From Solobacterium sp. (lineage in GTDB: Bacteria > Bacillota_I > Bacilli_A > Erysipelotrichales > Erysipelotrichaceae): a stretch of DNA of 64,000 nucleotides. Below are positions 24,412 through 49,179 of this stretch, piece after piece; position 1 is the stretch's first letter; the number at the start of each line of letters is the position of its first letter. The notes under the pieces were generated by a model, which did no database searches, was not told where the DNA came from, and saw only the letters and a program-made list of their open reading frames with translations. The stretch is from contig JAFYGX010000145.1 of assembly GCA_017543025.1 (NCBI GenBank), positions 1-64,000 on the forward strand, read 5' to 3'. Position numbers and translations under genes: made by a program.

Positions 24412-26091
24412 ATGAAATCAAAGACTGGAAAACTGCTTCTGATCGGAATCAACTTCGCCGTGTTTCTTTTTTTTCTGATGCTGAAACAATCCGCATTTGA
24501 AGGAAATGATGATGAAATGATGAATCTGATCGCTGCCGGAGCGTTCGGCACAAACGGAAATCACCTGATTTTTTCCGGCATTCTTACGGAATGGGTGCTG
24601 CGGATTCTGTATCTGCTTCCATGGAAAATCAATTATTATCTTCTGTGGTTTCAGACACTGGCGTTTGCCGCATTGAGTGCGGTCAGCACCGTATGCTGGT
24701 CAGAAAAGCCGGTTATAAAAGGCGTTGTGTTTACCCTTCTTCTGAATCTGATATTTGCCAATGACTTCTACCTGTACATGCAGTTCACCAAGCTTGGCAG
24801 TCTGCTTGCCGCAGCAGCCATACTCCTTCTGCATGACGCGTTCCGCAGAAGGTCCTGGCTGACAGGCAGTACCGGAATTCTTCTGCTTGTGCTTGGCATC
24901 AGTGTGCGGCAGGAAAGCGCGCTCTTTGCATTGCCGTTTGGCGCCTGCTGGCTGCTGGAAGACTACTGTTCCGTGTGTGAGAACGGAAAACTGCTCCGCT
25001 TTCGCGATCAGGCCGGCGGGAAGTTTCTTGTGAAACTGGTACTCAGTACCGCTGCCGCATGCGCAATCCTGCTGGGGCTGAACAGGCTGCCGTACCAGAG
25101 TCCGGAATGGAAGGCGTATGAGCGGTTCAACCGGGTGCGGTCCAACCTGCTTGATTACGGGATGGCGGATTATGAATCGAATGCCGACGCATATATCAAT
25201 ATCGGAGTGTCCTATGAAGACTACCGGCTGCTCCGGGAATGGGTGTTTGCGGATCCGGAAGTATTCACTGTGGAGAAGCTGGAAAAAATCGATGCGATCT
25301 CAAACGGGCGGGGAATGCATGCCGGCCTGAAACAGGCGTATGCCTCATTCGTTTCTGCGGTCCGTTACGGAAGCTATTCCCATCTGGTTCTGATTCTGCT
25401 GGCAGTTCTGGTGCTTGCGGATGGAAAAAAGAAACATCGAATCCTGCTGGCAACTGGCGGAATGGTGCTTGCGGAATATCTGTTTCTTGGCATCCTCGGT
25501 AGGATCAATATCCGGGTGGAGCTTGGCATCTGGTTTGCGGCGCTGCTTGTGCTGCTCTATGAAACAGAAGAAGAACGGCTGCTGGAAAAGAAACCGCTGC
25601 TGGTGATTGCGGCGGTGCTCGCTGCTGCAGAGGGATTCAGAAGCGTGCAGGCAATCGCAGAGCGGCTTGAACTCAACCGCAAAGCGGCAGAGAGTACTGA
25701 GTTTTCTGAGTATTTTCTCAAAGATGCAGAAAAAGCGGCTGAGAATTGTTATCTGATGGATGAAAAAACGATTTACCGGGGAGGGAGTATTTTTTCTTCG
25801 TCATATACTATCACTTCCGATCTTGACCAGCTTTTGATCAATGTATGCCCGCTGGGCGGCTGGGAATATCCGGCTCCCTTCCTGATTGAGGATATAAAGG
25901 AAGCGGGGGTTGCCAATCCGCTGAAAGACCTGCTTTATCAGGATCATATCTATTTTGCGACGGTCAACCGGAACGGCATCTGTGATGTGCTTCTGAACTA
26001 TCTCAGAGAACATTACGATCCTTCGGCTGAGATGAGACATGCGGGTGAAATACGGGGAATCGGTATTGTGGAATACTATATTCCGGAATAA
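24412..26091 (+). CDS. Multi-pass membrane protein of unknown function (GT-C-like topology)
   Basis: A 559-residue protein with hydrophobic segments at about residues 8-24, 50-65, 75-95, 103-122, 128-145, 158-175, 205-220, 315-335, 340-365 and 385-405, and a soluble C-terminal part of about 150 residues. A conserved-looking acidic loop (FEGNDDEMMN, residues 29-38) follows the first segment, as in GT-C glycosyltransferases, where an acidic residue in the first extracytoplasmic loop is catalytic. This is only a resemblance, and I recognise no family. It is followed after 63 bp by a lipoprotein gene, probably co-transcribed. No SD was found. Confidence 0.75.
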   Translation: MKSKTGKLLLIGINFAVFLFFLMLKQSAFEGNDDEMMNLIAAGAFGTNGNHLIFSGILTEWVLRILYLLPWKINYYLLWFQTLAFAALSAVSTVCWSEKPVIKGVVFTLLLNLIFANDFYLYMQFTKLGSLLAAAAILLLHDAFRRRSWLTGSTGILLLVLGISVRQESALFALPFGACWLLEDYCSVCENGKLLRFRDQAGGKFLVKLVLSTAAACAILLGLNRLPYQSPEWKAYERFNRVRSNLLDYGMADYESNADAYINIGVSYEDYRLLREWVFADPEVFTVEKLEKIDAISNGRGMHAGLKQAYASFVSAVRYGSYSHLVLILLAVLVLADGKKKHRILLATGGMVLAEYLFLGILGRINIRVELGIWFAALLVLLYETEEERLLEKKPLLVIAAVLAAAEGFRSVQAIAERLELNRKAAESTEFSEYFLKDAEKAAENCYLMDEKTIYRGGSIFSSSYTITSDLDQLLINVCPLGGWEYPAPFLIEDIKEAGVANPLKDLLYQDHIYFATVNRNGICDVLLNYLREHYDPSAEMRHAGEIRGIGIVEYYIPE

Positions 26092-26154: not shown

Positions 26155-27354
26155 ATGTACAATTGCCCTTTGAAAACAATAACCGCAGCAGTTCTTCTGG
26201 CGGCTCTGATTGCCGGATGCGCAGGCACAGATGCGGCAGAGCCGACTGCTGTGCCGGCAGAAACAGCACCTGCTGCAGAGCCGGAAGGATATGATCGCTA
26301 TCTCGAGCGGATGAACGCAATGCCGAAGATGGATAACTATACTGCTGGCGTTCAGCGTTCCTATGATATGAAGCTGGAAGATGGCTCACGCTCTGCGTAT
26401 GATCTGGATGGGGTTCTGATGGAGCAGGACGGGAGAATTCATCTTACACAGCATCTTTATTCGGACGGCATGCGTTCGGAAGCAGACGGATGGTACGATG
26501 GTTCCCGTCTGTATATGACTTATAATCAGGTGAATTACTACGAAGACATGGATCCTGATTCTGTGAGGGAGATTGCCATGGTGCCGCTCACTCCGGTTAC
26601 GGTGAGGAAAGAAGACATTGCGTCCATGGACTGTCATCCGGAGGAAGGAAACGAGAGCTGTACGTTTGTGCTGAAGCCGCAGAATGCTTCAGTACTGTTT
26701 GATGAGCGATATGATATCTACGGGCTGAACAGCTCCGGGGGTTATGAGATGAATACGGGAACGATCGTGCAGACGTTTCAGCCGGACGGGACGATCGTTT
26801 CAGAAGCAGCTTCTTTTCTCTGCAGTATGAATGTAAAAGGAATGAATGTTTCGGTTGAAGCGAAGACCTATGCGGGATGGATGGATATCGGAACGACCGA
26901 AGTCAATCTGACGAATGAACAGAAGGAAACGTTTGCGTCCTATGTGAATTTCCGGGATATTGATACCTCGAAGATCAGCGATGCGGACATCACTGCGGAT
27001 ACGGCAGAAGCGACTGCAGAGGGGACCTTCCGGAAGCGGCTGCAGAGCAGGCTGAGTTATAAACTGCAGGAAGACGGAACCTATCTTGCCGAATTCAATG
27101 ACGCGGAATCGTATCGGGTGGACTTTGAACATCATATCTTCACATATTCCAATCATACGAGTCACTATATCTATAACTGGCAGGGAGATATCGGCGGATT
27201 CGAAGACGCCTGTGTCTATGCGTTTTCTGATCAGACATCTGCGTCGGAATGTGAGGAATCGGTCATTGAGCAGATCCGCAACGTGAAGAAATTCTTTGTG
27301 ATGGAACTGTATTACTGCGGGCTTTCCCTTGAGGATCTCAGAGCGGAAGTGTAA
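26155..27354 (+). CDS. Putative lipoprotein of unknown function
   Basis: A 399-residue exported lipoprotein. The N-terminus has a short basic region, a hydrophobic core and the lipobox LIAGC (Cys at residue 22), then an Ala/Glu/Pro/Thr-rich linker before a soluble domain rich in Asp, Glu, Tyr and Ser. No family or catalytic motif was recognised. The upstream membrane protein gene is 63 bp away in the same orientation. The ACT-domain gene begins 44 bp downstream and has its own ribosome binding site. Confidence 0.82.
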   Translation: MYNCPLKTITAAVLLAALIAGCAGTDAAEPTAVPAETAPAAEPEGYDRYLERMNAMPKMDNYTAGVQRSYDMKLEDGSRSAYDLDGVLMEQDGRIHLTQHLYSDGMRSEADGWYDGSRLYMTYNQVNYYEDMDPDSVREIAMVPLTPVTVRKEDIASMDCHPEEGNESCTFVLKPQNASVLFDERYDIYGLNSSGGYEMNTGTIVQTFQPDGTIVSEAASFLCSMNVKGMNVSVEAKTYAGWMDIGTTEVNLTNEQKETFASYVNFRDIDTSKISDADITADTAEATAEGTFRKRLQSRLSYKLQEDGTYLAEFNDAESYRVDFEHHIFTYSNHTSHYIYNWQGDIGGFEDACVYAFSDQTSASECEESVIEQIRNVKKFFVMELYYCGLSLEDLRAEV

Positions 27355-35414: not shown

Positions 35415-36290
35415 CTATCCTCCGATGGAAACAAGCGCATCGCAATAGCGCTCCAGTTCTTCTTTTTTCAGCGCCGGTATATCGTCATAGCAATATGGCT
35501 TCTGAAGCTGATGCCATTTGGCTTTGCCGAGATTGTGGTAAGGCAGCAGGTGGATCGCCTTTATATGGCGGGATTTTGCATAAGCGATGAGGTCTTCCAC
35601 TGCATCCTGATTGAAGCCGGGGATGACCGGGATGCGGGCGATGACGTCTGACGGACGCAGCGAAGTCAGATATTCAAAGTTTTCGAAGATCTGTTCCGGC
35701 ACTGCATGCGTTACTGTTTTCAGAACAGCGGGATCCGTATGTTTCAGATCAAAGAGAAACAGATCGATATACGGTTCCGCCTGTTTCATCAGTGACGCCG
35801 GAACATTGCCGGTTGTTTCAGCTGCTGTGTGAAGCCCGGCCTCTTTTGCCTTCGCAAACAGCGCAATCGCTTCCTGGCCTTGAAACAGCGGTTCACCGCC
35901 GGAGAAAGTGACGCCTCCGCCGCTTTCCTCGTAATAATCAGAATCCTTCAGAACAATGCGAAGAATCTCTTCTGCACTCATTTCCGTGCCATTGAGAGAA
36001 AGCGCGGAACCCGGACAGCAGCGGACACATTCACCGCATGCCGTGCAGGCATTCCGGTCTGCCTCAAAGGCATCGTTCTGCCATTGAATCGCATGCCTGG
36101 GACATACGGCTTCACACCTGCGGCAGCGCAGGCAGACGGATTCCTTATACATCAGTACCGGCCGCGGTTCCTTCGCTTCCGGGTTGGCACACCATGGGCA
36201 GCAGAGCGGGCATCCCTTGAGAAAAACCGCTGTCCGTATGCCCGGCCCGTCATGCGTCGCAAACCGTTCAATATTGGATACCTTAATCAT
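35415..36290 (-). CDS. Glycyl radical enzyme activase (radical SAM, PflA family)
   Basis: A 291-residue activating enzyme that uses SAM and a 4Fe-4S cluster to install the glycyl radical on its partner. The radical SAM motif is in GCPLCCPWCANPE (C-x3-C-x2-C, about residues 30-37). An inserted ferredoxin-like domain with eight cysteines follows (CLRCRRCEAVCPRHAI and CTACGECVRCCPGSA, about 53-95), as in activases of dehydratase- and decarboxylase-type enzymes but not in PflA of pyruvate formate-lyase. Block SGGVTFSGGEPLFQ is standard. It overlaps the glycyl radical enzyme gene by 8 bp, showing a dedicated pair. Confidence 0.94.
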   Translation of the reverse strand: MIKVSNIERFATHDGPGIRTAVFLKGCPLCCPWCANPEAKEPRPVLMYKESVCLRCRRCEAVCPRHAIQWQNDAFEADRNACTACGECVRCCPGSALSLNGTEMSAEEILRIVLKDSDYYEESGGGVTFSGGEPLFQGQEAIALFAKAKEAGLHTAAETTGNVPASLMKQAEPYIDLFLFDLKHTDPAVLKTVTHAVPEQIFENFEYLTSLRPSDVIARIPVIPGFNQDAVEDLIAYAKSRHIKAIHLLPYHNLGKAKWHQLQKPYCYDDIPALKKEELERYCDALVSIGG

Positions 36291-38556
36291 ACAGCTCCCT
36301 GCTCAGCAGTTCTTCCTGCACATCCCGTCCGAGATTGATGAATACCGCACTGTAGCCGGCGACCCGGACAATGAGGTCCTTATGGTCCTGCGGATGGATC
36401 ATGGCGTCTTCGAGATCACCAGGATTGACGCAGGTTACCATCAGCTGACAGCCGCCTCTGCGGAAATAGGTGCGCAACATTGCCCGCACTTTTTCTTCCT
36501 CTTCCTTCATCATGCGGGGAGTGAATTTCATGTTCTGTACGCTTCCGGCGTGATACTTTGCATTGAACTTTGCCAGGGAGTTCATGCATGCGGTAGGGCC
36601 GGAAACAGCTGCACCGCCGACCGGATTGTTTGCCGGATTCAGATAAACGCCCCGTTTTCTGCCATCAAGGCTTGCGTCTGTCTGATGTCCCCAGTCGGTA
36701 TTGGTCTGGTTGTTGGAAATCACGATCAGATAATAGCCAAGGCCTGCATCGATGCCGCGCTGACGGATGCCTTTTGCGACATATTCATACAGTTCATTGG
36801 CGAGCTCGTCTGCTTCATCAATGTCATTTCCGTACTTTGCACAGGCAAGCAGATCTTTCTGAATCAGCCGGCCGTCTTCTCCTTCAAAGTTGTGAAGGGC
36901 AGCTTCATTCAGCTGCCGCAGCGTGTATTTCTTCTGGTCAAAGACGAGTGTCTTTATCGCGACGAGCGCATCAGACGCATTGATGTTTCCGTAGGTCTCG
37001 TTGGTTCCGCCGAGAATCTGCACTCCGCCGTCGAGCAGTGCTTTTCTGCGGGCGATGCAGTCATCCATCAGAATGGAGGTGAACAGGAAGGAAACTTCCT
37101 GATTCATGATTTCATAGCTGTGCTTCTGTGCTTCGATACTGAGATCAAAGTAGTAGTCAAGCAGCCGTTTATACTGATCGAAGAATTCGTCGAATGTCTG
37201 AAAGCTGTCGATATCCGCAACCTTTACCGGACCGGCTTTATAAATATGATCCATCGGGTCATATCCGTCATTCAGCCCCAGCTGCATGATCTTGACGAGG
37301 TTGAGCAGGGTGTTGGGTGTCCCGACGCTTTTCCCCTGAATCACATACTCCGTACAGCCAAACGGCGTATACTGTTCCGCTGTTTTACGGTCCACACGCA
37401 TGCCCCATTCCACTGCCGGTACGTTGACATCGTCGTTGTACAGCGTCGGATAAGTGCATCCCTCAGAAAGACAGGCATAGGCAAGATCAAGAATATCTTT
37501 CGGTGTGGTATGGTCGAAGCGCAGTGTGAACTGCGGCTCGACATACCGGGTGGAACGGCATACTTCAAGGCAGATCCGGCAGAAGAGGTCAGCCGCTTCC
37601 GGATCTTCTCTTCCCTGCCCGCCGACAATAATCCGCCCGTTGACCGTGGTTCTGCGATTTTCAATCAGCGTCCAGAGAGAGCGGACGCAGCGGAACGCAT
37701 CTGCCCGGGTAATCACTCCCTGTTCGATATCCCGCTTCAGATACGGGCCGAGCACGATATCCAGCCGGCCGTAATTGATACAGCCGGCACACAGCGCGTA
37801 CAGCCAGAACAGCTGCAGCGCCTGATGGAATGTGACCGGAGCTTCTTCCCGGATCGCTTTAAGATCCGTCAGGATCCACTCAAGATCCATTTTGCGCTGC
37901 CCCTGTGCAGCAGTGCATTCCTCTGCGGTAAGACGGATTTCCTTATCAATTACCTCCTGAAACAGATCCAGCGCACCAAGACACGATGTGATGAATGCGT
38001 TTGACTCTGTGCGGCGCAGTTCCTCTTTCAGCCCGTTTACACCAAGACGCATCAGTTTTGCATAATCCAGCATCATGCCGCTGAGCCGGGCAGTTGCCAT
38101 AAACGGATAGCGGCAGTCAATGAATCGTCCGGTCGTGGTATCGTTCAGCACATCCTGGCAGTAGATTGATTTGACATCATGTTCCTGCCAGTAGTCGTAC
38201 AGCGTCTGAACCCGCTGTTTATGCGCATCATCTTCAAACTGTTTGCCGAATGCGCGCAGTTCATGAAATACGCAGTAATGGCCGACACCGCCGATACTGG
38301 TCACAGAACCGAAGCCAATCGGCAGGAAATCGAGCCGGCCGGCAATCAGATCGGTTTCTTCATTATGGCGGAACAGCACCGGGTACAGAACCCTGAGGCA
38401 GTTCAGCTCCCGGATTGCCTTGTCCTGACCTTCGCTGTTTCTGTGCGCATCAGTATATGTTTCCATCAGGGAAAGCTGTTCTTCTGCGGAAAGTTCCGGC
38501 GCAAGCCGTTTTGATACATTGACATTCTGTGCGCCTTCAATATTGATCCGTGCCAT
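36283..38556 (-). CDS. Glycyl radical enzyme of unknown substrate (PFL superfamily)
   Basis: A 757-residue glycyl radical enzyme. The thiyl cysteine is Cys401 in PFGCTEYV, with the C-x-E glutamate (Glu403) found in eliminases such as diol dehydratases and choline lyase. Pyruvate formate-lyase has two adjacent cysteines instead. Gly734 in RVAGYSAVF is the radical site. The usual eliminase sequence is GCVE, so the GCTE form suggests a separate subfamily. Start ATG at 38556 has a GGAGG site; the longer frame adds 19 non-family residues. It heads an operon with activase, DeoR regulator and NanE, suggesting a substrate derived from an (amino)sugar. The reaction cannot be predicted. Confidence 0.93.
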   Translation of the reverse strand: MARINIEGAQNVNVSKRLAPELSAEEQLSLMETYTDAHRNSEGQDKAIRELNCLRVLYPVLFRHNEETDLIAGRLDFLPIGFGSVTSIGGVGHYCVFHELRAFGKQFEDDAHKQRVQTLYDYWQEHDVKSIYCQDVLNDTTTGRFIDCRYPFMATARLSGMMLDYAKLMRLGVNGLKEELRRTESNAFITSCLGALDLFQEVIDKEIRLTAEECTAAQGQRKMDLEWILTDLKAIREEAPVTFHQALQLFWLYALCAGCINYGRLDIVLGPYLKRDIEQGVITRADAFRCVRSLWTLIENRRTTVNGRIIVGGQGREDPEAADLFCRICLEVCRSTRYVEPQFTLRFDHTTPKDILDLAYACLSEGCTYPTLYNDDVNVPAVEWGMRVDRKTAEQYTPFGCTEYVIQGKSVGTPNTLLNLVKIMQLGLNDGYDPMDHIYKAGPVKVADIDSFQTFDEFFDQYKRLLDYYFDLSIEAQKHSYEIMNQEVSFLFTSILMDDCIARRKALLDGGVQILGGTNETYGNINASDALVAIKTLVFDQKKYTLRQLNEAALHNFEGEDGRLIQKDLLACAKYGNDIDEADELANELYEYVAKGIRQRGIDAGLGYYLIVISNNQTNTDWGHQTDASLDGRKRGVYLNPANNPVGGAAVSGPTACMNSLAKFNAKYHAGSVQNMKFTPRMMKEEEEKVRAMLRTYFRRGGCQLMVTCVNPGDLEDAMIHPQDHKDLIVRVAGYSAVFINLGRDVQEELLSRELYD

Positions 38557-38584
38557 AGCATGTCCTCCGTTTCGCTTCAGCTTC

Positions 38585-38613
38585 AATATAATGCATGCGG
38601 GAACTATATTCAA
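38585..38613 (-). promoter_or_regulatory. Promoter of the glycyl radical enzyme operon
   Basis: On the minus strand, -35 TTGAAT (38608-38613) and -10 TATATT (38585-38590) are separated by exactly 17 nt, about 30 bp upstream of the start codon. A candidate operator ends one base upstream of the -35. Confidence 0.65.
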
Positions 38614-39915: not shown

Positions 39916-41031
39916 ATGGAACTAACCAAGATCGTGATTACCGGCGGGCCGTGTGCCGGAAAGACAACGGCAATGAGCTGGATCAATAAAGAGTTTTCCA
40001 AACGCGGATACAAGGTGCTGTTTGTGCCGGAAACAGCGACAGAACTGATCTCAGGGGGCGTAGCGCCATGGACCTGCGGAACGAATTACGATTATCAGGT
40101 CGGACAGATGCGGCTGCAGTACGAAAAGGAAAAAGTCTTTGAGGCAGCGGCGAAAACAATGCCGGATGAAAAGATACTGATTGTCTGTGACCGAGGTCTG
40201 ATCGATAACCGCGTTTATATGACGGAAGCGGAATTTCAGAAGATTCTTGCCAGTATGGGGCTGAATGAAGTGGAATGCCGGGATTCCTATGATGCGGTGT
40301 TCCATATGATGACTGCGGCAAAAGGAGCGGAGCAGTTCTATACGACGGACAATAATGAAGCACGGATCGAATCGATTGACCAGGCAGTCAGACTTGATGA
40401 CAGCCTGATTGACGCATGGACCGGACATCCGCATCTTCGGGTAATCGATAATTCCGTTTCCTTCGAGGAAAAGCTCGTCCATCTGATTTCGGAAATCTCT
40501 GCTTTCCTCGGCGAGCCGGTCATGATGGAGGTAGAACGGAAATATCTGATTCGCTATCCGGATATTGCCTGGCTGGAAAGTCTGACGAACTGCCGCAGAG
40601 TTGAAATCATTCAGACCTATCTCTGTGCGCCGGCCGGAGAAGAACTGCGTGTGCGTCAGCGGGGAGAAAAAGGGCATTATACGTATTACATGACTTCCAA
40701 GCGGAAGGTCACGGGACTGAAGCGGATTGAAATTGAAAAGCGTCTGACACAGAATCAATATCTGGACCTGCTTATGGAAGCAGACCCCCAGAAGCGCCCG
40801 ATCCGGAAAACCCGTTTCTGCATGTCTTATCAGAGTCAGTATTTTGAAATTGATATTTACCCGTTCTGGAAAGACCGTGCCGTTATGGAAATTGAGCTTC
40901 AGAATGAAGATCAGGAGATTCATTTCCCGGAAGGAATTGAAATTATCCGGGAAGTGACAGAAGAGCCGGAATATAAAAATTCCGAGCTGGCAAGAATCAG
41001 TCTGGAAAAGGAAAAGAACAGGCTTCTGTAA
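39916..41031 (+). CDS. P-loop NTPase (AAA_28) fused to a CYTH domain
   Basis: A 371-residue two-domain protein. Residues 1-190 are a small nucleotide-binding domain with P-loop GGPCAGKTT (residues 10-18) and a kinase-like ILIVCDRGLIDNRVYM block (about 85-100). Residues 203-371 are a CYTH (triphosphate tunnel) domain opening with MMEVERKYLIRYP, which contains the ExExK signature, followed by alternating Arg/Lys/Glu beta strands (RVRQRGEKGHYTYYMTSKRK). CYTH enzymes hydrolyse or bind triphosphates. The same pairing occurs in the insect GTP-binding protein TTD14. Substrate unknown. It is monocistronic, with a terminator following. Confidence 0.88.
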   Translation: MELTKIVITGGPCAGKTTAMSWINKEFSKRGYKVLFVPETATELISGGVAPWTCGTNYDYQVGQMRLQYEKEKVFEAAAKTMPDEKILIVCDRGLIDNRVYMTEAEFQKILASMGLNEVECRDSYDAVFHMMTAAKGAEQFYTTDNNEARIESIDQAVRLDDSLIDAWTGHPHLRVIDNSVSFEEKLVHLISEISAFLGEPVMMEVERKYLIRYPDIAWLESLTNCRRVEIIQTYLCAPAGEELRVRQRGEKGHYTYYMTSKRKVTGLKRIEIEKRLTQNQYLDLLMEADPQKRPIRKTRFCMSYQSQYFEIDIYPFWKDRAVMEIELQNEDQEIHFPEGIEIIREVTEEPEYKNSELARISLEKEKNRLL

Positions 41032-41160: not shown

Positions 41161-43974
41161 TTAATGCTCGTTCGGGTAATCGGATTTTCCGGTTATTTTT
41201 TTCTTTATGATCTTAAAGCCCCGCTTCAGCGCATAAGGCGCAACGCACCGGATCATTTCTTCTGCGGTATGCATGTCTGAGGCATGCGGGATATCCCGTT
41301 CAAGCCGGATGGCATCGAATGCGCAGCGTGTCGTGCAGAGACCGCAGCCAACACACTGGTTCAGATCAACCTTTGCGGCACCGCATTTCAGACAGCGGCG
41401 TGCTTCATTCTGTACCTGCTTTTCGGTAAATGGCGCCCGCAGATCGGAAAAGGTTTCAGCTGCACTGCCGGGTTTTGAACCGGGCCGCTGACGAGCTGCG
41501 CTGTCATACGATTCGACACGGATATCGTCACGGTCCAGTTCAGTGAATTTCCGCAGATCGCGGCCAAGCGTGAGCGACTGCCCGGGATGGACAAAACGGT
41601 TGATTGATACCATGCCTTCTCTGCCCTCAGCGATCGCATCAATCGCAAACCGCGGACCGTGATAAATATCACCTCCGGTGAAGATATCGGGCTCGTCAGT
41701 CTGATAGGTAATCGGATCAGCGATCACAGTGCCGTTCGGATTGAGGCGGACCTTTGTTCCGTTCAGCAGATCTCCCCAGTCTGCTCTTTGGCCGATTGCC
41801 ATCAGAACATTGGCGCAATCTACGCGAATCGTTTCATTTTCATTGAATTCCGGAGAAAAGCGTCCGGTTTCATCGAATACGGAAATACATTTCCGGAAGA
41901 TCATGGAGGTGATTTTTCCGTCTTGTGTCCGGATTTCAAGCGGACCGTATCCGTTGATGATGTCGACGCCTTCTGCTTTCAATTCGGCGATCTCTTCGTC
42001 AGCGGCAGGCATTTCATCAGCCTGTTCGAGACAGACCATGAAGACGCGCTCACTTCCTGCACGCAGTGCGGTACGTGCAACATCTGCCGCAACATTACCG
42101 CCGCCGACCACAACTGCGGCACCGCTCAGTCGCTGCGTTTCATCCTGGCTGATGCGCTTCAGGAAGGAAATACCGCTTTCGACACCTGCAGCGTCTTCGC
42201 CGGGAATGCCGGCCATCGCTCCTTCCTGCAGACCGATCGCAAGATAGAATGCTTTATATCCCTGCGTCCGCAGTTCTTCAATCGTGACATCTTTACCGAC
42301 TTCAATTCCGCAGCGGATCTCAGCGCCCATCTTCTCAATGATCGAAATCTCCGCATTCAGAAGTTCTTTTTCCAGCCGGAAGTTCGGAATGCCGTTCATC
42401 ATCATCCCGCCTGGCCGGGATTCTTTCTCAAATACCGTAACCGGATAGCCTTCCGTCCGGAGCCAGTACGCTGCTGTAAGCCCTGCAGGACCGGCGCCGA
42501 TCACGGCGATTTTAAATTCATCCCATTGTTTTCCGTCCATGTTCTCACAGACAGGAATAAAGCAGTCCGGATTCTGAACCTCATACTGACAGAGGAACTT
42601 CTTGATCTCATCAATTGCGACCGGCTGATCGATGATTCCGCGTGTGCAGCGGTCTTCACACCTTCTGTTGCATACTGCTCCGCATACTGCCGGGAACGGA
42701 TTGTCCCTGCGGATCAGCTTTACAGCATCTTCATAGCGGCCTTCTGCCGCCATACGGATGTACCCCTGAACAGAAACATGTGCAGGGCAAGCGGTTTTGC
42801 ATGGCGATGTGCCGGTGTCATAGCAGCTGATTCTGTTATGATCGCGGTAATCGGGATCCCATCTGTCTTCGCCCCAGATGTTGTCATCCGGCAGCTCATG
42901 GAGCGGATACTTCACACGGGAGCCATCTGCCCGGCAGAGTTTCTGGCCAAGCTTTGCGGCTCCGGCCGGACAGACCTCAGCGCATTTCCCGCAGGCTGTG
43001 CATTTCTGCGGGTCAACATGCGCACGGTAGGCGCTCCGGCTCATGTTCGGCGTATTGAACAGCTGGCTGGTGCGCAGTCCGTAGCAGCTGCCGGGAGAGC
43101 AGTTGCAGATGCCGACGATGCGATCCGGACCGTCAAGATTGGTGATCTGATGCACGTAACCCTTGCGCTCTGCCCGCAGGATGATGTCCATCGCTTCTTC
43201 TCTTGTGATGTAGTGCGCATCTTTTCCGGATGTTACAAGAAACTCGGCAATATCACCGACGCCGATGCACATATAGCCTTCCACATCACCGACGCCTTCA
43301 TTCCGGATGCGCTGAGCTTTCCGGCAGGCGCAGACCATTGCACAGAAGGTGTCGTATTTCTGAAGCCAGTGGGAAAGATGCTCTACGGAAACCGAACGGC
43401 TTTCCGCTTCAATGGCCTTCTCCACCGGAATGACATGCATTCCGATACCGGCTCCCCCGGGAGGAACCAGTTTTGCGGCAAGCTCAAGGGGCTCCTGCGG
43501 GGCAAGGTTGAACATAGTGGCAATTTCCGGATGCTCATCCGGCAGTGTCGGGTGCTCGACCATGTATTCCCCGCTTCCGACAACCCATTTGGGAATCAGA
43601 TACTGAATATGGTGATCCTGGTTGTCGCGGTTCTGTTCCAGGAGGCCGATCCACAGCAGATGGTTGATCATGCGCTGAGCTTCCTCTTCACTCATATGAT
43701 TGGCTCTGGCAAGTTCCGCTGTGGTTTTTCCGGTCCGCCGTTTTCTGAAGCTGAGCATGAACTTCACTTCTTCATTGGAAAGAAGCCGGTCAAGAATCCA
43801 GAAGTCCATATGATTTTCGTGCATTCCTCCGGGGAGTTTGCGGGGAATGTTGTCGGTGATCATCCGGGCAAGCTTCATCACAAGCTCTTTCTTCTCCGGA
43901 TCATCACAATGGTGGTCCTGATACGGGTAATCGCGTTCATTCACATGAATGCGTGGATTAACTTCTTTTGGCAT
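41161..43974 (-). CDS. Large GltD-like FAD/iron-sulfur oxidoreductase
   Basis: A 937-residue flavoprotein. Residues about 65-130 look like a winged helix (KTTAELARANHMSEEEAQRM); a Cys-rich region follows (CNCSPGSCYGL). A ferredoxin motif KCTACGKCAEVCPAGAAKLG lies at about 326-345. A glutamate-synthase-small-subunit-like module (about 400-830) has CKTACPAHVSVQGYIRMA, FAD motif IGAGPAGLTAAYWL and NAD(P)H motif VVVGGGNVAADVART. A final [4Fe-4S] pair (CVGCGLCTTRCAFDAI) ends the protein. Such proteins pass electrons between NAD(P)H and ferredoxin or a partner enzyme. It is divergent from the fatty acid isomerase-like gene and may supply reductant to that cluster. Ribosome binding site AAGGAG. Confidence 0.9.
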   Translation of the reverse strand: MPKEVNPRIHVNERDYPYQDHHCDDPEKKELVMKLARMITDNIPRKLPGGMHENHMDFWILDRLLSNEEVKFMLSFRKRRTGKTTAELARANHMSEEEAQRMINHLLWIGLLEQNRDNQDHHIQYLIPKWVVGSGEYMVEHPTLPDEHPEIATMFNLAPQEPLELAAKLVPPGGAGIGMHVIPVEKAIEAESRSVSVEHLSHWLQKYDTFCAMVCACRKAQRIRNEGVGDVEGYMCIGVGDIAEFLVTSGKDAHYITREEAMDIILRAERKGYVHQITNLDGPDRIVGICNCSPGSCYGLRTSQLFNTPNMSRSAYRAHVDPQKCTACGKCAEVCPAGAAKLGQKLCRADGSRVKYPLHELPDDNIWGEDRWDPDYRDHNRISCYDTGTSPCKTACPAHVSVQGYIRMAAEGRYEDAVKLIRRDNPFPAVCGAVCNRRCEDRCTRGIIDQPVAIDEIKKFLCQYEVQNPDCFIPVCENMDGKQWDEFKIAVIGAGPAGLTAAYWLRTEGYPVTVFEKESRPGGMMMNGIPNFRLEKELLNAEISIIEKMGAEIRCGIEVGKDVTIEELRTQGYKAFYLAIGLQEGAMAGIPGEDAAGVESGISFLKRISQDETQRLSGAAVVVGGGNVAADVARTALRAGSERVFMVCLEQADEMPAADEEIAELKAEGVDIINGYGPLEIRTQDGKITSMIFRKCISVFDETGRFSPEFNENETIRVDCANVLMAIGQRADWGDLLNGTKVRLNPNGTVIADPITYQTDEPDIFTGGDIYHGPRFAIDAIAEGREGMVSINRFVHPGQSLTLGRDLRKFTELDRDDIRVESYDSAARQRPGSKPGSAAETFSDLRAPFTEKQVQNEARRCLKCGAAKVDLNQCVGCGLCTTRCAFDAIRLERDIPHASDMHTAEEMIRCVAPYALKRGFKIIKKKITGKSDYPNEH

Positions 43975-44202
43975 GCGTGTCTCCTTAAATGAGTTTCCGG
44001 CAATCTGTTTTCACATTCCGGTCTGAACAGGAACCGGATTGCGGACAATAAGAATCCTGCTGGAGTAATTTTACAACATCATAATGAGAAAACCATCCGT
44101 CAGGCAGAAAAGGGAGGGGCGAGGAGATTCGGAAATGCGTGCAAAAAACCGAATCATACGGCTATAATGAAATCAGCTGAAACACTGGAGGATAATTTAC
44201 TT
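43975..44202. promoter_or_regulatory. Divergent control region of the redox/fatty acid cluster
   Basis: 228 bp between divergent genes. A consensus -10, TATAAT, at 44163-44168 precedes the plus-strand gene by 34 bp. No strong -35 stands at 17 nt (closest TGCAAA-like). I could not find a clear operator. Confidence 0.45.
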
Positions 44203-45558
44203 ATGGATAAGGATACAAGAATCTGTATTATCGGCGGAGGACCCGCAGGTCTTTCTGCCGGAATGTATCTTGAAAAGAAAGGATACGATAATTATACGAT
44301 CCTGGAGCGGAACGATCATGTCGGCGGCAAATGCAACAGCCCGCACTATAACGGAAGACGGTATGAGATGGGCGCGATCATGGGCGTGCCTTCTTACTAT
44401 GCCGTTCATGATGTGGAAACATTCTGCGGCATTACCCATGACGGACCGCAGCTGAGCCGCAGATACAAGGATGCCGAAGGAAATGTAATCGAACCGTTTG
44501 AACCGGCGAAGAATCTTCTGAAGATTCCGCATCTGATGAAGATGAAGCAGCAGGTTACAGAACTGGGACGCATTCTTGAGACAAAGTACAAGGGGTACGA
44601 TGTCAACGGACACCGCGGTGTTGCGCAGGGCCGGTATGAAGGCTTTGCCTGCACGCCGGAGCGCGAAGAAGTCAGCGGTACAAACGAGAATCTGAAGGAT
44701 CTTTCTATGCCGTTCAAAGACTGGTGTGAAATGAATCATGTTGAACTCATTCAGGATATCTGGGTCGGCCCGTTCACTTCATTCGGCTACGGTTATTTTG
44801 ATGAGATTCCGGCGGCCTATGTTCTGAAATATCTGGACTTCCAGACATGCATGAACTTCGTCCGGCTGAACCTCTGGACATGGAAGAACGGTACGCAGTA
44901 CATCTGGGAATGCCTGAATGAAAAACTGAAGAATCCGGCCCGGCTCTGTGCTTCGATTTCGAAGATCGAGCGGAAAGACGGAAAGGTATATGTGACCGTC
45001 AACGGGGAAACAGAGGAATACGACAAGCTGATTGTAACCGCTCCGCTGCAGTTCTTCCCGAACTATGCGGACGCAAGAGAAGATGAGAAGAAGTATTTCT
45101 CGAAGATTGAGTACGAGCGCTATGACGTGCTGGCAGTCGAGACAAGACCGGAAGATCATCCTGATATCTCCTACTATGTATTTGATAATATGACGCCGGA
45201 GCGCCTCGGGCATCTGATGGTTTATTACCGTCGCTGGAGAGATACGAAAGACCAGGTGATTACCACCTACGCCCTCCGCAAGCATAAAAACCGTGAGGAG
45301 ATCACCGTGGATGCGTGCCGCCAGATGGTTCTGGAAGACCTGCGCATCATGCGGAACCCGGCATCCAATGTCATCAATGAACAGAGCTGGTATTACTTCC
45401 CCCATGTCTTCTCGGAAGACTATGCGGCAGGCTGGTACGATGACGTTGAAGCAATGCAGGGTAAATACGATACCTACTATGCCGGTGAAATCATGTCATT
45501 CGGAGACATGGATGAAACCGCTGAGTATTCAAGAGAACTTGTTGAACGTTTCTTCTGA
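44203..45558 (+). CDS. FAD-dependent fatty acid (linoleate/PUFA) isomerase homologue
   Basis: A 451-residue flavoprotein of the amine oxidase/isomerase fold with FAD motif IIGGGPAGLSAGMYL (residues 9-23). Several blocks match, from memory, the Cutibacterium acnes polyunsaturated fatty acid isomerase (PAI), which makes trans-10,cis-12 conjugated linoleic acid: TILERNDHVGGKC, GRRYEMGAIMGVPSY, IPAAYVLKYLDFQT, RLGHLMVYYRRW, WYYFPHVFSEDYAAGWY and YAGEIMSFGDMDE. I infer the same type of double-bond isomerisation; the regiospecificity is unknown. The start at 44203 has a GGAGG site; the ATG at 44167 overlaps the -10. Upstream of a saturase-like gene and a reductase gene, after its own terminator. 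Confidence 0.85.
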   Translation: MDKDTRICIIGGGPAGLSAGMYLEKKGYDNYTILERNDHVGGKCNSPHYNGRRYEMGAIMGVPSYYAVHDVETFCGITHDGPQLSRRYKDAEGNVIEPFEPAKNLLKIPHLMKMKQQVTELGRILETKYKGYDVNGHRGVAQGRYEGFACTPEREEVSGTNENLKDLSMPFKDWCEMNHVELIQDIWVGPFTSFGYGYFDEIPAAYVLKYLDFQTCMNFVRLNLWTWKNGTQYIWECLNEKLKNPARLCASISKIERKDGKVYVTVNGETEEYDKLIVTAPLQFFPNYADAREDEKKYFSKIEYERYDVLAVETRPEDHPDISYYVFDNMTPERLGHLMVYYRRWRDTKDQVITTYALRKHKNREEITVDACRQMVLEDLRIMRNPASNVINEQSWYYFPHVFSEDYAAGWYDDVEAMQGKYDTYYAGEIMSFGDMDETAEYSRELVERFF

Positions 45559-45583
45559 GAAGCCTTCAGCGATCCGAAGATTG

Positions 45584-45624
45584 AAAGAACAGGTTCGGCC
45601 GGATGCGGCAGCCTGTTCTTTTTC
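45584..45624 (+). terminator. Terminator between isomerase-like and saturase-like genes
   Basis: Perfect 10-bp stem AAAGAACAGG (45584-45593) with CCTGTTCTTT (45612-45621), followed by a T-run. Some read-through is possible, as no strong promoter is visible before the next gene. Confidence 0.8.
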
Positions 45625-45680
45625 AGTCAGGACAGAATGCGTAAAAACAGATCCATAGCATCATGAGAAAGGATAATCCT

Positions 45681-47240
45681 ATGGCTTTTTACAGAGAACA
45701 TTACGATGTGATCGTGATCGGCGGTGCGCTTGCGGGCATGAGCTGCGCGATGCGGCTGGCTTCGGAAGGAAAATCAGTGCTGGTGCTTGAGCGCCATAAT
45801 CTTCCGGGCGGCTGTGCGACAAGCTTTGTGCGAAGCGGGATTGAAATGGAAGCGACCCTGCATGAGATGATGTCGCTTGGCCCGGCGGAGGAACCGCTCT
45901 ATATCCGGAAGTATCTGGATGAGATGAAGGTAGCGATTGACTGGCTCCGGGTTCCGGAAGCGTATGAACTGGTTTCGCCGGAAGATCAGATTGATATTGA
46001 ACTGCATGCCGGAAGGAGAGCGGACGGCACATGGGTCTGCGCAGATGAGATCGAAGCGCAGTATCCCGGCACCCGCCCGGAAGTCAACCGGCTGCTTGAG
46101 GTCTGCCGCAGCGTTTATGAATCCGTGCTGTATCTGAATGAGCATTCGCTGTCGAAGGCAGAGATGCTGATGAAACATGAAGCGCTGGTCAGAACAGCCG
46201 GCTATTCCGCAGAGGAAGTGCTGCATGCTGCGTTTCATCTTCCTGCACCGGTGAAAAAGATTCTCAGCGCATACTGGATTTACGTCGGGCAGCCGATGAG
46301 CACCCTGCCGTTTACAATCTATGCATTTCTGATGGCGGATTATATGATGGGCGGAAGTTATGTTGCGCGCGGCTTCTCTCATGAGATGGCCATGGCAATG
46401 CAGAACCGCTGTGAAGAACTCGGCGTGCAGTTTGAATACTGTCAGAACGTGGAGAAGATCCTGGTGGAAAACGGCCATGTTTACGGCGTCCGTACATCCC
46501 GCGGGGATGAGATTCATGCGCGGTATATCGCCTGTGCGCCATATCCGAATACCGTTTACGGAACCATGATCGAACCGCAGTCTGAAGTTCCGGTACAGGC
46601 AAGAAAGTACGCCAATGCGATGCCGATGTCCGTGACAAACTTTTCGGTTGTGCTTCTTCTGGATCAGAAACCGGAAGAGCTCAATATTCATTCCTATTCG
46701 GTCTTCTCCAGTGAAATTCCGTTTGATACGAATGTGTTCTGGGAACAGGGAAAACAGCCCGGGAACTGGAGCTATCTGACAGCGATCTGTCTGAATTACG
46801 CCAATCCGGATGCGGTGCCGGAAGGCATGACCAGTCTTTCGATCACCAACCTTCCGCTGCCGGAAGCGTTTGACCGGGTCAATGCGGATAATTATTACAG
46901 AATGAAGCGGAAGATCGCAAAGCAGATGATCGATACGGTGAGCAGACGGCTTGGCGTCAATCTTCTGAATCATATTCAGGAGATTGTGATTGAAACTCCG
47001 ATGACGATTGCCCGGTATACCGGAATGTATCAGGGCGGTATTTACGGTTACCAGCATTCGATGGTCAACTCTGTTGTCGGCCGGCTGGAAGATGTGGAAC
47101 GGGAACAGTACATCGGGGGTCTTGTGTGGTGTGCGAGCCATCAGCTTGTCGGAGACGGCATGGCGTGCAATATCAATAACGGAAAGATCGCTGCGACGAT
47201 GATCCTCGAACAGATGAAAAAGGAGGCGTCCGGAAAATGA
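45681..47240 (+). CDS. Retinol saturase/phytoene desaturase-like FAD oxidoreductase
   Basis: A 519-residue flavoprotein of the CrtI/RetSat-like group. FAD motif VIVIGGALAGMSCAMRL (about residues 10-26), then ERHNLPGGCATSF (about 36-48), and a C-terminal FAD-closing block (GGLVWCASHQLVGDGMACNI). Family members desaturate or saturate conjugated polyenes. Next to a linoleate isomerase homologue and a reductase, reduction of a conjugated fatty acid is a reasonable inference. The ATG at 45681 has a GAAAGGA site with 8-nt spacing; an in-frame ATG at 45663 lies inside that site. It overlaps the next gene by 4 bp (ATGA). Confidence 0.83.
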   Translation: MAFYREHYDVIVIGGALAGMSCAMRLASEGKSVLVLERHNLPGGCATSFVRSGIEMEATLHEMMSLGPAEEPLYIRKYLDEMKVAIDWLRVPEAYELVSPEDQIDIELHAGRRADGTWVCADEIEAQYPGTRPEVNRLLEVCRSVYESVLYLNEHSLSKAEMLMKHEALVRTAGYSAEEVLHAAFHLPAPVKKILSAYWIYVGQPMSTLPFTIYAFLMADYMMGGSYVARGFSHEMAMAMQNRCEELGVQFEYCQNVEKILVENGHVYGVRTSRGDEIHARYIACAPYPNTVYGTMIEPQSEVPVQARKYANAMPMSVTNFSVVLLLDQKPEELNIHSYSVFSSEIPFDTNVFWEQGKQPGNWSYLTAICLNYANPDAVPEGMTSLSITNLPLPEAFDRVNADNYYRMKRKIAKQMIDTVSRRLGVNLLNHIQEIVIETPMTIARYTGMYQGGIYGYQHSMVNSVVGRLEDVEREQYIGGLVWCASHQLVGDGMACNINNGKIAATMILEQMKKEASGK

Positions 47241-48424
47241 AAGTCCATGGATTTTTCAGAGATGTACTCGGCGCAAACCGCGTCATTGACGCAAGACGGA
47301 AGCTGATTGAAAGCGGCAGCCCGGAGAACCTTTACCACGACCATATCAAGGAGATTGCGCAGGAACTGCATCCGGAATCGACCAGAGTCAGGGTGACGAA
47401 GGCGGAGAATGTTTCGCCGACTGCCAGACGGTTTACGTTTGAGGCAGCAGAAGGAGAACTCCTTCCGCCGTTTCAGGCAGGACAATATGTCAGTCTTGAT
47501 CTGGAAATTAACGGAACCGTGACTACGCGCCCGTATTCGATCTGCAGCGCGCCGTTTGAAGCGCGCGGTGATGACCATCCGTTCTTTCAGATTACGGTGC
47601 GAAACGGAAAACCGGAAACCGGATTTGCGGCAAACTGGCTGTATGCCAATGTGAAGCAGGGAGATATCTTTACTGCTCATCTGCCGTTCGGCGAATTTTA
47701 CTATGAACCCCTGCGGGATTCCAAAACCGTGGTGGCGCTTGCGGGAGGCAGCGGCATTACGCCGTTCTGCTCGATGGCAAAGGAAATCGCGCATGGCACG
47801 CTGGACATGGATCTTACGATTCTGTATGGTTCGGTTTCGCCGAAGGATATCATTCTGGAAGATACGCTGAAGTCTGTTCGCAGCGACCGCGTTCGTCTGA
47901 TCAATGTCATCAGCGGGGATGAACCGTATGAAGGAGAACGGGGACTGCTTTCGAAGGAGCTGATCCGGAAGTATTCGGGTGAGGATACGACATACTTCGT
48001 ATGCGGACCGCTTCCGATGTATCGCTATGTGAAACAGCAGCTGGAACAGCTGAACGTGCCGGCCAGGCGCATCCGGATGGAAGTGTTCGGCGCACCTCGT
48101 GATGTCAGACAGGCAGAAGGCTATCCGAAGGAGCAGAAGCCTGAAATCTTCCGGCTGACGGTGCTTCGCGGCATTCAGGAAGATGTGATAGAAATGCGCT
48201 CAGAAGAGCCGATCATGATCGCACTGGAACGGGCGGGGATTCCCGGCCGCAGCAGATGCCGCTCCGGAGCCTGCGGGTACTGCCGCGCCAAACTCATCAG
48301 CGGAGAGGTATTTGTACCGGCGGACGGCGATGGCAGAAGACGGGCGGATAAGCAGTTCGGCTATATTCATGCCTGCAGCAGCTGGCCGCTCAGCGACTGC
48401 ACGATACGGATTCCGATTCTGTAA
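47237..48424 (+). CDS. Flavin/[2Fe-2S] NAD(P)H oxidoreductase (ferredoxin reductase type)
   Basis: A 395-residue electron-transfer protein. Residues about 50-160 form a ferredoxin-reductase FAD domain with TRPYSICSAP. Residues 160-290 form the NAD(P) domain with ALAGGSGITPFCSMAKEI and YFVCGPLPMY. Residues about 305-395 form a plant-type ferredoxin with the C-x4-C-x2-C motif in RCRSGACGYC and a fourth cysteine in HACSSW. The design resembles reductase components of oxygenases and hydroxylases, yet here the start overlaps the saturase-like gene (ATGA), so it most likely delivers NAD(P)H electrons to that flavoprotein. A terminator follows. Confidence 0.9.
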   Translation: MKVHGFFRDVLGANRVIDARRKLIESGSPENLYHDHIKEIAQELHPESTRVRVTKAENVSPTARRFTFEAAEGELLPPFQAGQYVSLDLEINGTVTTRPYSICSAPFEARGDDHPFFQITVRNGKPETGFAANWLYANVKQGDIFTAHLPFGEFYYEPLRDSKTVVALAGGSGITPFCSMAKEIAHGTLDMDLTILYGSVSPKDIILEDTLKSVRSDRVRLINVISGDEPYEGERGLLSKELIRKYSGEDTTYFVCGPLPMYRYVKQQLEQLNVPARRIRMEVFGAPRDVRQAEGYPKEQKPEIFRLTVLRGIQEDVIEMRSEEPIMIALERAGIPGRSRCRSGACGYCRAKLISGEVFVPADGDGRRRADKQFGYIHACSSWPLSDCTIRIPIL

Positions 48425-48487: not shown

Positions 48488-49179
48488 CCCTCAGCTGATT
48501 CTGCGAAACCGGCTTCCGGACAGAAAATCCGGACATTCTGATTTTTCATGCGGATGTTTTCTGTGATGAAATAAGCACACTTGTGGCAGGAAACGGATTT
48601 TGTAATATGCTATGAAGCTGATGCCTGTCCTGCAGAGGCAAAAGCAAAAACAGGAAAATGCAGATTATGCATAACTGTTATGAAGCACCCTGAGCATTGC
48701 GGCCTGACAAAGTTTATAAAACCGGAGATTATGACATTGGTGAGACAGGTGATATTCTCGCTCTGCCGCACTATCCTGTCTTTCTGTTCGGATGCAGAAC
48801 AGATTTGATTGAGATGAGTCGAAACGCTGCCTGATCGACAATATCATGATGAAAAATATCTTTGAGGCCGATCAGGATCGGGCTGTACGGGAGTGCGTGT
48901 TATCCATGGCTGCGCAGTATCGCCGGTTTAATGCCCGTCCGATGTCAATCACAGAGGTTATGACAATCATTCAGACAACATGCACGCGTATTAAATTGAA
49001 TGGACTGAGTCGCTGATTTGCATATAAGTCCTTTCGTATCGCTGCAGAGGAAGTGCGGTATGATAAGATGGCATTTGCATGAGAGATATGCATCAGCGAC
49101 GGAAACAGTGTCAGGCACAGCTGTTTTGCACAGAAACAGAATGGAAAGGAATCGCGGGAATGCCTGCCCGAAAAGAAAA
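48488..49179. other. Intergenic region with possible gene remnants
   Basis: About 690 bp with little coding character. A Cys-rich 75-codon frame (48581-48808) has no ribosome binding site and no recognisable motif. A 56-codon frame at 48846-49016 looks more protein-like and is listed separately. A TATGAT hexamer at 49059-49064 may belong to the NUDIX gene promoter. Confidence 0.4.
48846..49016 (+). CDS. Possible small protein or gene remnant, 56 residues
   Basis: Begins MMKNIFEADQDRAVRECVLS and continues as an amphipathic, helix-like sequence (AAQYRRFNARPMSITEVMTI). In-frame codons extend upstream to 48813 without a start, so it may be the tail of a decayed gene. No clear ribosome binding site and no family recognised. 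Confidence 0.3.
   Translation: MMKNIFEADQDRAVRECVLSMAAQYRRFNARPMSITEVMTIIQTTCTRIKLNGLSR

Follow-up and report, generated by a model that had tools for sequence, protein, structure and literature searches.

A recurrent isomerase and reductase gene cassette in Solobacterium sp. and related gut bacteria, proposed to isomerise and hydrogenate polyunsaturated fatty acids

The hydrogenation of polyunsaturated fatty acids (PUFA) in the rumen is well known, and the genes responsible for it are largely unidentified. Biohydrogenation in the rumen and gut sets the PUFA, conjugated linoleic acid (CLA) and trans fat that reach milk, meat and host tissue. Here, we analyzed a stretch of 64,000 nucleotides from a Solobacterium sp. 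contig (JAFYGX010000145.1, positions 1 to 64,000; hereafter the window) that contains four neighboring genes for redox proteins: a homolog of the PUFA isomerase of Cutibacterium acnes (PAI), a saturase-like flavoprotein (SAT), a [2Fe-2S] reductase (RED) and a GltD-like protein of 937 residues (GLTD).

Several described systems are close to this locus in reaction or in architecture. The CLA-HY/DH/DC/ER system of Lactobacillus plantarum consists of a hydratase, a dehydrogenase, a decarboxylase and an enone reductase (PMC13365329). In Butyrivibrio, a linoleate isomerase gene was reportedly not found (PMC6249431), a membrane enzyme is indicated for the isomerase of B. fibrisolvens (PMC12254105), and the reductase is reported to be in no family database and hence not searchable (PMC4478896). 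The IsrA protein of Acetobacterium wieringae (901 amino acids; Kronen et al. 2023, PMC10134865) is induced by isoprene, the conjugated diene for which it is a putative reductase. Its core is of the Nfn/GltD type, and it carries four [4Fe-4S] sites as well as a six-cysteine site, the proposed place of the substrate, that includes Cys180-x-Cys182 and Cys254-x-Cys256. The same paper suggests other unsaturated hydrocarbons as substrates for the IsrA clade and places an oleate hydratase gene next to IsrA homologs in A. woodii and A. fimetarium; the phrase "conjugated linoleic" is absent from it. The hypA and hypB genes are common beside IsrA homologs (0.73 and 0.56) and hence not defining (PMC10134865).

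We propose, with a probability of roughly 0.6, that the locus represents a dedicated oxygen-independent system that would isomerise and hydrogenate PUFA, as suggested by its gene content, conservation and co-occurrence, and by an operator-like site shared among its close relatives. The PAI-like enzyme would convert a methylene-interrupted diene into a conjugated diene, a step for which the homology is strong. GLTD would then move NAD(P)H electrons via FAD and [4Fe-4S] clusters to its six-cysteine metal site and reduce the conjugated diene to a monoene, and RED would move NAD(P)H electrons via FAD and [2Fe-2S] to SAT, either for a second reduction or as an alternative to the reduction by GLTD. 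In most relatives a dedicated acyl carrier protein (ACP) may bear the chain; its gene is absent from the window along with those of its partners. The first-pass annotation of this DNA had placed the four redox open reading frames (ORFs) correctly and had suggested a scheme of conjugation followed by reduction; the scheme is supported by the PAI homology and the conserved gene set, although its choice of reductase was probably incomplete, and GLTD is here added as a candidate.

A search of species genomes with a profile built from 20 SAT proteins identified 581 relatives, and the locus counts given here refer to the best 80 of these. Their record titles name Erysipelotrichaceae, Lachnospiraceae, Coriobacteriia, Clostridiales and other metagenome-assembled genomes, many from the rumen or gut, whereas Sphaerochaetaceae and the like are single odd records in which binning errors are possible. 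The genomes are mostly drafts and include kin species, which do not count as independent; gene calls were made by our own script, and contig ends cut many of the loci. The RED gene was located directly after the SAT gene in all 80 loci, with a gap of -7 to 66 bases between the aligned ends (in L075, RED was split into two ORFs), and this linkage is therefore more than chance. PAI was located upstream of SAT on the same strand in 59 loci and downstream in one (L042), giving 60 PAI loci in total. For the 20 loci without PAI, whole-genome searches (23 genomes, 3 of which already had PAI in the SAT locus) identified PAI elsewhere in 10 and no match in 10. A closely related GLTD gene, here called type 1, was located downstream of RED in 14 of the 80 loci and upstream in 6. 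The four cluster cysteines of RED (C341, C346, C349 and C380) were retained in all 71 aligned relatives. The cassette is thus real and recurrent, and the grouping of isomerase, SAT and RED noted in the first-pass annotation is a conserved set across related loci; isomerisation and hydrogenation of PUFA is its most likely function as judged from the sequences.

The co-occurrence of SAT and PAI was also examined in genome sets defined by taxonomy. Among 176 Erysipelotrichales genomes chosen without regard to SAT (thresholds of at least 50% identity for SAT and E 1e-100 for GLTD), PAI was present in 19 and SAT in 13, and all 13 SAT genomes contained PAI (p = 1.7e-15), while GLTD homologs were identified in 49 genomes, including all 19 with PAI (p = 1.4e-12), both values being inflated by genome relatedness, as are all p-values for this set. 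Among 200 Lachnospiraceae genomes (SAT threshold of at least 46% identity), PAI was present in 6, SAT in 5 and both in 4. A thin sample of the phylum contained PAI in 7 of 245 genomes. The co-occurrence proposed as a check at first pass was therefore borne out in both groups; against it, no PAI match was obtained in 10 genomes of the 80 with SAT loci described above.

The relationship of the PAI-like protein to the C. acnes enzyme, which had been recognized at first pass, was evident from its match among the PDB sequences to the C. acnes PUFA isomerase 2b9w (E = 8.5e-144), with which it showed 54% identity over 418 residues. The FAD motif GGGPAG was present at residue 23. Of the two residues that we take to be the substrate gate, R88 was found in 84 of 84 aligned rows and F193 in 83, with a gap in the remaining one, and both were retained in the window. 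The prediction that the protein isomerises PUFA is accordingly strong by homology.

In GLTD, Pfam domains were identified at residues 319-339 (Fer4), 384-467 (Fer4_20) and 487-784 (Pyr_redox_2), and the C-terminal cysteines at residues 861-884, where Pfam lists no domain, were invariant in the alignment. The six-cysteine site (C215-x-C217, C236, C290-x-C292, C297) was present in all 41 aligned homologs, 19 of the cassette type and 22 others, and an additional cysteine, C211, was found in 19 of the 19 and 0 of the 22, respectively. Matches in the PDB were to NfnA and other Nfn/GltD-type chains, and the nearest curated families are GltD-like. These similarities, together with the position of GLTD after RED in 14 loci and the fixed partnership of RED with SAT, would also fit a possible though rather improbable alternative in which reduction of the conjugated fatty acid is the task of SAT-RED, with GLTD acting only to provide or balance electrons in the manner of GltD or NfnB. 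Against this stands the invariance of the N-terminal six-cysteine site, the counterpart of the IsrA substrate site proposed in PMC10134865, as does a second PAI clade (46-54% identity), in which a GLTD homolog was located next to PAI in 10 of 15 regions, these 10 having no RED beside PAI and no SAT anywhere in the region. Of these 10 regions, 7 carried hypA and/or hypB, and three of the five regions without GLTD were on contigs of 3-6 kb. Because of the IsrA architecture, the invariant six-cysteine site and the PAI genes without an adjoining SAT, GLTD is more likely to be a reductase than merely the ferredoxin link suggested in the first-pass annotation. It would be the best candidate for the conjugated fatty acid reductase, with SAT-RED as a second NAD(P)H-driven step, and we propose that enzymes of the IsrA clade often reduce conjugated fatty acids.

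It was also noted that hypA was present in 59 of the 176 Erysipelotrichales genomes, including 48 of the 49 with GLTD (p = 3e-31). Here, 46 of 63 hypA genes were located at most 1.5 kb from a GLTD gene, and 47 of 77 GLTD places had hypA within this distance. In Erysipelotrichales, IsrA-type enzymes may be the main clients of the nickel chaperones HypA and HypB (regions L186, L188-L190, L192 and L195-L197).

The SAT protein was placed in the CrtI superfamily by fold, and its NCBIfam scores were below the cut-offs, with 96.2 for crtI_fam (cut-off 238.1) and 85.4 for carot_isom (cut-off 586.9; 25 of 69 families shown). Carotenoid isomerases need reduced FAD. With a carotenoid isomerase family as its second-best match, SAT might use FAD reduced by RED to shift the geometry or position of a double bond with no net reduction, although this is unlikely, given that the score of 85.4 bits falls short of the family cut-off and that the phytoene desaturase family scores slightly higher. 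This resemblance makes the reductive role of SAT a tentative one.

A divergent gene for an AMP-forming acyl ligase was located next to PAI in 49 of the 60 PAI loci, usually backed by genes for an ACP and an acyl-ACP thioesterase (gene clusters in 50, 46 and 41 loci; Pfam AMP-binding, PP-binding and Acyl-ACP_TE). The block thioesterase-ACP-ligase followed by PAI-SAT-RED-GLTD was identified in at least 7 of the 80 loci and also in L184. A ligase homolog was found in the genomes of 12 of 16 SAT loci showing no ligase (21 genomes searched). Among 12 ligase loci that were retrieved, three were the SAT loci L081, L082 and L086, while the other nine contained an ACP and a thioesterase in seven cases and PAI beside the ligase in two. 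The ligase trios of the clade to which the window belongs were only 36-48% identical to the cassette trios, and none of five carried the operator-like site; they may therefore be paralogous to them. A rival reading, in which the cluster would synthesize or alter some other lipid or diene, such as an ACP-bound product or a terpenoid, and dietary PUFA would not be its substrate, agrees with the ligase, ACP and thioesterase genes beside PAI in many relatives and with the proposed action of IsrA on isoprene (PMC10134865), yet it is very unlikely in view of the homology of PAI to a PUFA isomerase and the rumen or gut samples in many of the 80 record titles, environments in which PUFA hydrogenation is known.

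A gene for a regulator of the GntR/FCD family was located upstream of SAT in 13 of the 14 loci of its cluster (the exception was L053); its NCBIfam matches included NanR, PdhR and FadR, none of them over the cut-off. The motif TGGTNNNACCA, which we take to be the shape of FadR-type operators, was found 14-18 bases before the regulator gene in ten loci, 24-35 bases before SAT in 13 and 34 bases before PAI in L022. In five close relatives (L002, L004, L006, L035 and L041) the same motif preceded GLTD (by 46-78 bases), PAI (by 93-110 bases), the GntR gene and SAT, and the cassette is probably co-regulated in these relatives. Within 4 kb of SAT, the 14 loci of the regulator cluster contained 32 such motifs and the remaining 66 loci contained 2, against an expectation of about 0.1 per locus from mononucleotide shuffles of 8 loci. 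A site was also located between PAI and the divergent ligase gene in L018 and L020. We infer that the GntR/FCD regulator binds TGGTNNNACCA.

In three related genomes without PAI (L074-L076), the gene for a membrane protein, DUF5692, occupied the position of PAI, with SAT-RED on the opposite strand in divergent orientation; the ligase came next in L075 and L076, while the L074 contig ends there. Among 50 SAT genomes, DUF5692 was present in three of the 10 that lacked PAI and in none of the 40 that had it; the three represent one lineage. Neither PAI nor DUF5692 was identified by our searches in the genomes of seven SAT-RED loci (L047, L049, L027, L030, L032, L034 and L036). In one Lachnospiraceae genome, G533, DUF5692 lies directly beside distant relatives of RED (38%) and SAT (29%). 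Homologs with 78-83% identity were found in Butyrivibrio and Pseudobutyrivibrio among the best 120 of 3917 matches; five Butyrivibrio-like regions (L153 and L158-L161; 72-81% identity to the L076 protein) had no GLTD or SAT nearby, and of 28 Lachnospiraceae genomes with DUF5692 a single one gave a SAT match at E 1e-40, at 29%. In 10 of 20 Lachnospiraceae regions DUF5692 adjoined GLTD, with hypA also present (DUF5692 regions L185 and L143-L162). This family is a frequent neighbor of GLTD homologs, and the only paper found to name it is that on IsrA (PMC10134865). DUF5692 may be the linoleate isomerase of Butyrivibrio, which we offer as a lead only. A broader and tentative suggestion, which includes this assignment, is that PUFA biohydrogenation in anaerobic gut bacteria is modular, with one of two unrelated isomerases, PAI or DUF5692, combined with an IsrA-type reductase, SAT-RED or both, and that the IsrA-type enzymes, often served by HypA/HypB, commonly act on conjugated fatty acids and not isoprene in nature.

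Several observations weigh against the proposal of a dedicated PUFA system. The SAT genomes without a PAI match indicate some PAI-independent use of SAT-RED. Of the 49 Erysipelotrichales genomes with GLTD, 30 lacked PAI, so that GLTD homologs have other roles or partners, and other Acetobacterium homologs of IsrA do not reduce isoprene (PMC10134865). In five of the ten genomes with adjoining PAI and GLTD genes, SAT was present elsewhere (G396, G402, G275, G012 and G010); it was not found at E 1e-40 in G116, G395, G489 and G501, and G247 was outside the search. Furthermore, the 64 kb window contained no TGGTNNNACCA motif, regulator match, HypA/HypB or ligase trio. With neither motif nor regulator match, and with a hairpin between PAI and SAT, control in the window differs from that in its relatives.

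The arms of this hairpin, at 45584-45593 and 45612-45621, are perfect inverted repeats of 10 bases, with T residues after the second arm; a terminator scan allowing loops of 3-8 bases did not list it. Because of it, PAI and SAT-RED may be transcribed separately in the window. For PAI, the start at 44203 chosen at first pass was preferred over 44167, since a GGAGG leader and ATGGATAA are common to five relatives. The in-frame ATG of SAT at 45681 has a Shine-Dalgarno-like leader and gives a protein size that fits the 515-522 amino acids usual in homologs. The SAT stop and RED start overlap in the sequence ATGA.

Features of the four-gene redox locus in the window
Feature	Positions	Strand	Remarks
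GLTD	41161..43974	-	937 amino acids; IsrA-like FAD/NAD(P)H multi-[4Fe-4S] oxidoreductase; Pfam Fer4, Fer4_20, Pyr_redox_2; candidate conjugated fatty acid reductase
Divergent GLTD-PAI intergenic region	43975..44202		Operator-like sites in five relatives, none in window
PAI-like PUFA isomerase	44203..45558	+	Longest ORF from 44167; 2b9w homology
Terminator-like hairpin, PAI/SAT interval	45584..45621	+	Inverted repeat, then T's
SAT, CrtI-superfamily flavoprotein	45681..47240	+	Longest ORF from 45663
RED, FAD/NAD(P)/[2Fe-2S] reductase	47237..48424	+	Pfam FAD_binding_6, NAD_binding_1 and Fer2; start overlaps SAT stop
Terminator-like site after RED	48783..48803	+	Consensus match only; no commoner than in shuffles

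Other genes in the window include an ORF at 39916-41031 (+) with an AAA_28 domain at residues 5-186 and a C-terminal half without assignment, a homolog of which adjoins GLTD in L002, L004 and L041. The region 35415-38613 (-) encodes a pyruvate formate-lyase (PFL)-like glycyl radical enzyme, which scored under the cut-offs of the named NCBIfam subfamilies, and its radical SAM activase; the adjoining genes specify a NanE-type epimerase and a DeoR regulator. The ORF at 10932-20216 (+) encodes a surface-type protein of 3094 residues that contains BspA leucine-rich repeats, 26 stretches of Big_2 and, at its C-terminus, DUF5648, while two adjoining ORFs at 24412-26091 and 26155-27354 (+), of 559 and 399 amino acids, had no Pfam match at 1e-5.

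The protein families of the cassette are already known. The first-pass annotation had called it, as far as known, a non-standard system, and neither the assembled system nor the proposed role of its IsrA-like member was found described in the literature searched. The recurrent gene set offers named candidates for every step, together with a role proposed for the IsrA clade in nature, which makes the question directly testable. The L. plantarum CLA-HY/DH/DC/ER system is similar in that it employs more than one enzyme to convert linoleate via CLA towards monoenes (PMC13365329), whereas none of the four genes in the window has a Pfam match of that kind. With the CLA reductase of B. fibrisolvens (Hughes 1982 and Fukuda 2007, as cited in PMC4478896 and PMC2836310) the likeness is in the proposed reaction. 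SAT differs from the carotenoid desaturase, carotenoid isomerase and retinol saturase flavoproteins in its scores below the curated cut-offs (the carotenoid families were compared by NCBIfam score) and in its fixed [2Fe-2S] reductase partner. The C. acnes PUFA isomerase shares full-length homology, the FAD motif, R88 and F193 with the window protein, which differs in belonging to a cassette with reductases. Compared with the published description of IsrA, GLTD is likewise of about 900 amino acids, with a GltD/Nfn-like core and several [4Fe-4S] sites, and follows the clade 9 domain plan of an unassigned N-terminus, Fer4, DPD domain II, an FAD/NAD(P) domain and a C-terminal [4Fe-4S] motif, the CxC motifs of the six-cysteine site being 75 residues apart in GLTD and 74 in IsrA. 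It differs from IsrA in that it adjoins a fatty acid isomerase, lacks hypA/hypB in the window and belongs to a type in which C211 is invariant.

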